This document shows, piece after piece, positions 33,345 to 35,140 of a stretch of 64,000 bases of DNA (its first letter is position 1; every line of letters begins with the position of its first letter). The translations under genes were made by a program, and so were the position numbers. The notes under the pieces are model-generated. The model saw nothing but the letters and a program-made list of their open reading frames with translations. It was not told the origin of the DNA and did not search any database. The DNA is taken from the NCBI RefSeq assembly GCF_000243315.1, contig NZ_JH597768.1, forward strand, positions 365,322-429,321, in the 5' to 3' direction. The DNA comes from Metallosphaera yellowstonensis MK1. GTDB lineage: Archaea; Thermoproteota; Thermoprotei_A; Sulfolobales; Sulfolobaceae.

Positions 33345-34073
33345 TCACCCTAATTTCTGGAGGTAACTCGTCCTCTCCTCTAAACTCATTTTCCTAAATA
33401 GTCCTGTGTCCCTCGTGGCATATCCTACTTCGACGTTGCTCGGACTCAGCTTCTCTCCAGGTTTCAGAGTAGCTTTAAGTGAATTGAGTGCTAACATGAC
33501 TGTTTCCTCGACATTAAGGTCCTCTCTATAGTTCTTCTCTAAGTACTCAGTGGCACTATAGCCTCCCTGACCTATCGCTACAGCCTGATAGGGCATAAAC
33601 TGCCCACTGGGTTCAGTCATGAAGAGCTTGGTCACTCCTCTGTCGACTCCCCCTACTATGAGGGCCACACCAAAAGGTCTAACTCCTCCGTGCTGAGTGT
33701 ACATCTGTTTAACGTCCGATATTAACTTAGTGAGGTAGTCTATGCTTATCGGTTCATCGTAGACTAGTCTATGTTGTAGTGAGGAATTCCTGGCATAATC
33801 TATTAAGATCCTTCCATCAGACGCCAAACCTGCGAAGCTACAGCCGACATGGTCATCAAGAAGATACACCTTCTCTATACTATCCACATCGAGCAGTTGG
33901 GACGCCTTCTTCTTTTCGCCTATAATAACTACTGCACTCTTAGTCTTAACTCCGAGGGTGGTCCATCCCTTCTTAACGGCCTCAAAGGCATAGTCGACTT
34001 GATAAAGCGACCCATCTGGGGAAAAGATCGTGATAGCCCTATCGTATCCCATGGCTGCTGGTCCAAAAGCCAT
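33345..34073 (-). CDS. psmA: Proteasome alpha subunit
   Basis: This is a 242-residue outer-ring subunit of the 20S proteasome. The N-terminal YDRAITIFSPDGSLYQVDYA motif (H0 helix and gate) is diagnostic. It is upstream of the exosome genes, as in most archaea. The activating ATPase PAN is at 56.7 kb. Confidence 0.97.
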   Translation of the reverse strand: MAFGPAAMGYDRAITIFSPDGSLYQVDYAFEAVKKGWTTLGVKTKSAVVIIGEKKKASQLLDVDSIEKVYLLDDHVGCSFAGLASDGRILIDYARNSSLQHRLVYDEPISIDYLTKLISDVKQMYTQHGGVRPFGVALIVGGVDRGVTKLFMTEPSGQFMPYQAVAIGQGGYSATEYLEKNYREDLNVEETVMLALNSLKATLKPGEKLSPSNVEVGYATRDTGLFRKMSLEERTSYLQKLG

Positions 34074-34121: not shown

Positions 34122-34181
34122 ACGAATCAGATCGTCGCAGAGAACATCATAATACAGTCTGGAGCGGCGTCATCATCTATT
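34122..34181 (-). ncRNA. Probable C/D-box guide sRNA
   Basis: On the minus strand the order is ATGATGA (C box, 34170-34176), 12 nt, CTGT (D'-like), ATT, ATGATGT (C'-like, 34144-34150), 13 nt, then CTGA (D box, 34127-34130). Spacing and total size fit archaeal C/D guide RNAs. The D guide TCTCTGCGACGAT would direct 2'-O-methylation of an RNA containing ATCGTCGCAGAGA. The C box begins directly after the Pop5 stop codon, so the RNA may be processed from the rnp2 transcript. Boundaries are approximate and the target is not identified. Confidence 0.65.
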
Positions 34182-34608
34182 GTCTCATGAGGTGTTTGGC
34201 CTTTTTTAAACTTCCGGTGGTCCTAACGGGGACTAGAAGAATCTCCTTATCCTCAACGGACTTGACGAAAGGAAGAGCTGCTAAGACTGCCTTATAACCT
34301 AGACGGTTAGTGGAGATTATTCCGCTCATCCTTCCCGGATCATAGATCACGACCCTAGGGTTAGATATATCGAGCCAGACCTTACCCAAGAGCTCCTGTA
34401 GGGCCATTCTTATCTGTTTTTCCATGTCCTGAACGTTGATGTCATCATGATCCGACAAGACCTTAAATACGATGTACCTTTTTTTGTTCTTTCTCAGGGT
34501 TAGTCTAGGAACCTTGGGTTTTAGCTCCTCACTCTTTCTACGAAATGATAGGTAGGTTAGCGTCACAAGCCATACAATTAATAAGATATCAATAATTAGC
34601 TGAAGCAT
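34177..34608 (-). CDS. rnp2: RNase P protein component 2 (Pop5) with an N-terminal membrane helix
   Basis: Pop5 supports the catalytic domain of RNase P RNA together with Rpp30. The core begins near residue 43 (KRYIVFKVLSDHDDINVQDMEKQI) and ends in KAVLAALPFVKSV. Ahead of it, residues 2-22 (LQLIIDILLIVWLVTLTYLSF) form a strongly hydrophobic helix followed by a basic linker. No later start codon precedes the core, so the extension appears genuine. It overlaps rnp3 by 20 nt. Confidence 0.88.
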   Translation of the reverse strand: MLQLIIDILLIVWLVTLTYLSFRRKSEELKPKVPRLTLRKNKKRYIVFKVLSDHDDINVQDMEKQIRMALQELLGKVWLDISNPRVVIYDPGRMSGIISTNRLGYKAVLAALPFVKSVEDKEILLVPVRTTGSLKKAKHLMRQ

Positions 34609-35140
34609 TTCTATACAGCTCCAAAGGGAAACTGTATATCCACGTTAGGGCTAACGGTGACGATGCTCCTAAGATTAGCAAATAGTTAAGCTTGGAGATC
34701 GGGCTCCAAACTTCAGATATTTTAGAAGGACAGCTCGAGAAAACGGTCTTAAGCCCACGGTTTCCTAACTCTATTGCCCTCCTAACCACTTCGTGCGATG
34801 AGGAGCGGAGCCAAACCTCAACAAATTTTCCCTTCCTGACCATAAGTCTGACCAGAGGTCTCTTGTATAGATGGAGATTCGTATTATCGAGCACGATACA
34901 ACACACTCTTTCATCGTTTATGACCTTGATGAGACTATCCCTAGAGTTAGGTCTGAAGAAGACCAGATGTCCCCTGCTAAAGGCCTTATCTATCTCCCCA
35001 TGTGGATACTTCTCTGCAGTCAACGTGATCCTACCTATTGTTGCAACAGCTCCCCCTCCCTCGATCAGAAACGATGAATAGCCTATTTTCTTCAGTATGG
35101 GGATCAGGGCCTCATTTCGCAGACATGTTTCTACTAACAA
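34589..35140 (-). CDS. rnp3: RNase P protein component 3 (Rpp30)
   Basis: This is a 183-residue TIM-barrel-like partner of Pop5. It is short compared with euryarchaeal Rpp30 but typical for Sulfolobales. FVEVWLRSSSHEVVRRAIELGNRG and the final SPLALTWIYSFPLE match the family. It overlaps both neighbours. Confidence 0.83.
   Translation of the reverse strand: MLVETCLRNEALIPILKKIGYSSFLIEGGGAVATIGRITLTAEKYPHGEIDKAFSRGHLVFFRPNSRDSLIKVINDERVCCIVLDNTNLHLYKRPLVRLMVRKGKFVEVWLRSSSHEVVRRAIELGNRGLKTVFSSCPSKISEVWSPISKLNYLLILGASSPLALTWIYSFPLELYRNASANY

Follow-up and report, generated by a model that had tools for sequence, protein, structure and literature searches.

A predicted dual-guide C/D box sRNA gene adjoining archaeal Pop5, with both guides conserved across most of a sampled phylum

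Introduction

Archaeal C/D guide sRNAs, as represented by the S. acidocaldarius set (Dennis et al. 2015, PMC4644070), carry their boxes in the order C, D', C', D and have two guides of 12–13 nt with predicted rRNA targets near the peptidyl transferase centre (PTC). The same paper stresses the accelerated evolution of the guides and reports no site common to all seven species; the equivalent of E. coli G2251 was a predicted C/D target in three of the seven. G2251 is methylated by RlmB in bacteria, and the human cytoplasmic Gm4196 is formed via a snoRNA-guided route (PMC7379855). Wide conservation of a C/D guide has a precedent, because the Haloferax C/D candidate for G1950 has homologues reported in 25 archaeal genomes (PMC2584109). 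That paper places its target at E. coli position 1909 and not at 2251, whereas PMC11542601 treats H. marismortui Gm1950 as the equivalent of E. coli Gm2251, so the two papers conflict. As regards genomic setting, Tripp et al. (2017), as cited in PMC7994747, state that 25% of C/D genes overlap the 3' end of an ORF, with the stop codon lying in the C box in almost 50% of those.

Here we describe an element downstream of Pop5 in the window, which is the whole 64 kb stretch of Metallosphaera yellowstonensis MK1 DNA that was analysed. The element has the box order of the S. acidocaldarius set, two guides within the same length range and predicted rRNA targets near the PTC. In contrast with the picture drawn in PMC4644070, however, both of its guides are retained through most of the sampled phylum. 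Its likeness to the bacterial and eukaryotic Gm2251 systems is one of predicted target, as the same P-loop nucleotide would be addressed, whereas the archaeal RNA has a second guide, to H89. Like the Haloferax candidate, it is a widely conserved C/D guide. With the ORF-overlapping genes of Tripp et al. it has in common that the stop codon lies in the C box or adjoins it. It differs from them in that the stop shifts against the box between species while the distance from the box to a TATA-like element is held within a few nucleotides, and in that a promoter-like element inside the ORF is under constraint. Thus the layout, a C/D gene at the 3' end of an ORF, is a published common arrangement (PMC7994747), and it is the depth of conservation that is unusual.

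The element and its neighbours

Reading of the minus strand showed that Pop5 ends CTC ATG AGA CAA TAG and that the C box follows without a gap. This confirmed the initial annotation, which had placed the C box directly after the rnp2 TAG (34179–34177), and its box layout on the minus strand between rnp2 and psmA was found to be exact. From box C to box D the sRNA occupies 34127–34176 of the minus strand, as judged by sequence reading, pattern scans and homologues; the span given initially (34122–34181) extends beyond it to take in the stop codon and a few neighbouring bases. The C box ATGATGA (34170–34176), which adjoins the Pop5 stop, is followed by the 12 nt D' guide CGCCGCTCCAGA (34158–34169), the D' box CTGT (34154–34157), a 3 nt linker, ATT, between the D' and C' boxes (34151–34153), the C' box ATGATGT (34144–34150), the 13 nt D guide TCTCTGCGACGAT (34131–34143) and the D box CTGA (34127–34130), all on the minus strand. 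Both the C and D boxes agree with the RUGAUGA and CUGA of archaeal C/D sRNAs, and the spacers of 12 and 13 nt agree with the usual ~12 nt between boxes. The C' box departs from the canonical sequence at its last base, as does the D' box, which lacks the A of CUGA. In nearly all copies of the family described below the D' box is CTGT or CTGC, and in Nitrosopumilus-like homologues it is CTGA.

A relaxed box pattern matched once in the window and in none of 100 shuffles, and the exact pattern had a single match in the entire 2.8 Mb genome and none in the reversed control, so a chance origin of the boxes and their spacing is unlikely. No Rfam family scored above its gathering cut-off over the element. 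The sub-threshold matches were all to C/D families (sR5, snoPyro_CD, sR48 and GlsR4), the best of them, sR5, having 14.8 vs 40 bits and an E of 0.29. A literature search by guide sequence found no paper. Judged by its sequence, the element downstream of Pop5 is a C/D box guide RNA gene.

The preceding gene, rnp2 (34177–34608, minus strand), encodes the RNase P protein Pop5, matching PF01900 with an E of 2.1e-14 and NCBIfam PRK03717 with 3.6e-9, which is under the cut-off of the latter model. The downstream neighbour is psmA, the proteasome alpha subunit (33345–34073, minus strand; Pfam PF00227/PF10584). Along the minus strand, L15e and a gene for a PF01877 RNA-binding protein come first; an ORF in the place of Rpp30 (34589–35140), which had no match in Pfam or NCBIfam, lies between them and Pop5. 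The sRNA and proteasome alpha follow, and beyond these SBDS, Rrp4 and a pair of exosome proteins of the RNase PH family. An operon that joins POP5 and the adjacent RPP30 to genes of the proteasome and exosome has been published (PMC4919917).

Conservation in relatives and across the phylum

We searched 60 related genomes for Pop5 and took the best loci; 29 loci, the window included, belong to the same family. The sRNA with both its guides was present at all 29 family loci, and at 28 of them it stood directly after Pop5. In 25 relatives the box begins at −1 relative to the Pop5 stop and contains that stop, a TGA; it begins at +2 in two relatives and at +3 in the window, where the TAG ends at the base immediately before the C box and lies outside it. 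At the 29th locus (G011) the sRNA is antisense and upstream of Pop5. Among the family copies the C and D boxes and the two guides hardly vary; the differences lie in the linker, in the base that adjoins the D' or D box and at the distal ends of the guides. It had been stated at the outset that a guide RNA would be refuted if close relatives had the neighbouring genes but not the boxes; on examination the boxes were kept, and conservation in the relatives shows the association with Pop5 to be real and old.

Two sequence-only models were used for wider searches, one made from the family copies (R1) and a broader one (R2). R1 matched 55 of the 60 relatives, weak partial matches counted, and R2 matched 126 of 147 class genomes at E ≤ 0.01. 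Positions were tabulated for the 118 strongest of these 126. The sRNA lay within 600 nt of Pop5 in 76 of them: directly downstream in the sense orientation in 64, downstream antisense in seven, upstream sense in four and upstream antisense in one. In the rest it was far from Pop5 or on another contig, or no Pop5 was found.

In a sample of the phylum, 119 of 200 genomes, mesophilic Nitrosopumilus among them, matched at E ≤ 0.001, some over part of the model only, and the copies taken from other classes carry both guides. Two genomes of other classes (G264 and G204) keep the order L15e, PF01877, Pop5, sRNA, PsmA, SBDS, and in Nitrosopumilus-like genomes the sRNA directly follows the PF01877-type gene with no Pop5 between. 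A pattern scan of all genomes had many chance bacterial matches among those listed, together with records of Nitrosopumilus, Nitrosarchaeum, Cenarchaeum, Thermogladius and Desulfurococcales. In relatives from most of the sampled phylum the sRNA adjoins Pop5 or other genes of the same cluster.

Several homologues had further features. Two Nitrosopumilus-like copies (L211 and L212) are flanked by the PF01877-type gene on one side and a FAD-dependent reductase-like ORF on the other. The copies L221–L224 and L226–L228, from f25 and f34 genomes, keep the D guide and have the D' guide replaced by a GATGATGGGTATCAAA-type sequence; most of them are near L15e/PF01877 genes. In two f12 genomes (L231 and L232, from G060 and G071) the modules are circularly permuted, with the H89 guide first and the P-loop guide second.

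Predicted targets in 23S rRNA

The 23S rRNA of the organism itself is mostly masked, with both target sites readable, and the full-operon scan was carried out on relatives' complete rrn operons, against which the guides of all family members were scored. The site ranked first in the searched operons was CUGGGGCGGC, in the 23S P-loop, for the D' guide and UCGUCGCGG, at the base of 23S H89, for the D guide. Alignment to E. coli 23S showed that the nucleotides at D+5, which are base-paired in both duplexes, are G2251 (D') and U2460 (D). The duplexes have ~10 pairs with G-U wobbles and are not perfect matches. When the columns were shuffled, the observed score was reached in 114–192 of 5000 trials for D' and 132–149 of 5000 for D (~2–4% each), and thus each match alone is modest evidence. 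The stronger argument is that the two guides agree on conserved sites in the catalytic centre and that the conserved guide columns are the pairing columns.

GGGGC can pair with either guide variant, GCUCC or GUCCC. Both target sites are nearly invariant, and both are kept across the phylum. Position 3 of the H89 target changes from C to U in two genomes, G318 and G252, and in G318 the change is matched by a G to A in the guide, a compensatory change. The D guide has only eight uninterrupted pairs in some genera, and in a few outgroups there is a mismatch inside the duplex. Taking these observations together, we predict that the sRNA directs methylation at two sites in the catalytic centre of the ribosome.

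Other candidate targets were also scored. The nine 16S loci gave weak matches only. Another 23S site, TAGGTCGCAGAGA, with 10 pairs, was dropped, as positions 2–3 beside the box mismatch and the pairing guide bases vary in relatives. No match comparable with the 23S sites was found for either guide in the eight tRNAs of the window. The search of rRNA and tRNA that had been suggested at the start was productive for 23S, although the perfect complements proposed there were not found, the best sites carrying wobbles.

A putative promoter within the Pop5 ORF

The TATA-like sequence TTTAAAAA (34203–34210, minus strand), within the Pop5 ORF, is proposed as the sRNA promoter on the grounds of synonymous constraint and of the recurrence of its position in distant homologues. 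In the family, the Pop5 codons GGA-AGY-TTA-AAA stand ~33 nt before the C box and are the four Pop5 columns of highest codon homogeneity against simulation (z 7.6 to 13.8, the next column having 4.2), values that rank the columns and are not probabilities because the sequences are related. The Leu codon among them is TTA in 25 of 25 family sequences. Between species the spacing of the TATA-like element is fixed, within a few nucleotides, to the C box and not to the stop codon. We further analysed 42 other upstream regions, from more distant homologues except for one from the family (G011). In 27 of the 42, against 8.2 expected if uniform, the best TATA-like 8-mer had its start between −37 and −28 relative to the C box; the significance of this is optimistic, as we set the scoring weights ourselves after viewing the sequences. 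The antisense copies, which are found near Pop5 in eight class genomes, also have TATA-like elements upstream. A reading of T-TTA-AAA as a −1 frameshift site was dropped, since in five family sequences AGC before TTA breaks the slippery heptamer; these five still keep a TATA-like element. The sRNA thus probably has its own promoter inside the Pop5 ORF.

Mechanism and alternative explanations

The best explanation, and in our judgement a very probable one, is a dual-guide archaeal C/D sRNA gene, probably with its own promoter, that would direct methylation of two 23S sites. We infer transcription of the sRNA, its exact start site, its protein binding and the methylation as follows. Transcription would be driven from the TATA box in the final ~35 coding nucleotides of Pop5, and the RNA would start a few nucleotides (about 2–4) before the C box, approximately at the Pop5 stop codon. 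The sRNA would then assemble with L7Ae, Nop5 and fibrillarin. Within this complex methylation would be directed to two nucleotides near the PTC, the P-loop G (E. coli G2251) by the D' guide and a U (E. coli U2460) at the base of H89 by the D guide.

The initial annotation had suggested a different origin, with cleavage of the Pop5 mRNA at its 3' end releasing the guide. Processing from the end of an L15e-...-Rpp30-Pop5 mRNA, with L7Ae, Nop5 and fibrillarin protecting the product, would be in keeping with the adjacent and co-oriented position after Pop5 in 64 of the 118 class genomes. It would also accord with the findings that most archaeal C/D genes are without their own promoter and that in S. 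acidocaldarius the flanks can be changed with maturation kept (PMC7994747). However, the synonymous constraint coincides exactly with a TATA-like element that is suitably spaced from the C box, such an element also stands upstream of distant and antisense homologues, and the antisense copies cannot derive from a Pop5 mRNA. We therefore regard processing as an unlikely origin of the sRNA, though processing of a read-through transcript may be a second source. The idea that such a transcript would link two RNA-modification systems was overstated, because RNase P processes RNA and does not modify it.

The element could also be a guide RNA with other targets (a tRNA, an mRNA or another rRNA site), the 23S matches being simply the best of many weak ones. 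Shuffled guides equalled the best score in 2–4% of trials, and the tRNA scan covered the eight tRNAs of the window. Yet the window tRNAs gave no match, both guides pick conserved PTC sites with pairing in the conserved columns, and the match between guides and targets is maintained throughout the phylum, in one case by a compensatory change, which makes other targets rather improbable. Finally, RIP-Seq of L7Ae in S. acidocaldarius recovered mRNA fragments with C/D-like boxes (PMC5539422), and the element might accordingly be mainly a k-turn at the 3' end of the Pop5 mRNA that binds L7Ae for mRNA regulation, with its likeness to a guide RNA secondary. As the guides are conserved as well as the boxes, even where the copy is antisense or away from Pop5, we consider this highly unlikely. 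The predicted dual-guide sRNA gene with a probable promoter of its own is thus the reading that we prefer.

Significance

Archaeal C/D guides have been described as fast-evolving, yet here two guides, two catalytic-centre targets and one gene neighbourhood are kept through most of the sampled phylum, and the sRNA can serve as a marker for which ribosome methylations are ancestral. It is a candidate archaeal guide for the P-loop methylation known in bacteria, mitochondria and eukaryotes. The putative promoter inside Pop5 provides a test case for a promoter and a coding sequence sharing the same bases, and the guide-swapped and module-permuted genomes show how such RNAs change. More tentatively, and as a possibility that we hold to be somewhat doubtful, the sRNA may be an ancestral part of the exosome–proteasome–RNase P cluster of the phylum, with the same two PTC targets from hyperthermophilic acidophiles to mesophilic marine ammonia oxidisers, and may also chaperone assembly of the catalytic centre by binding H80 and H89.
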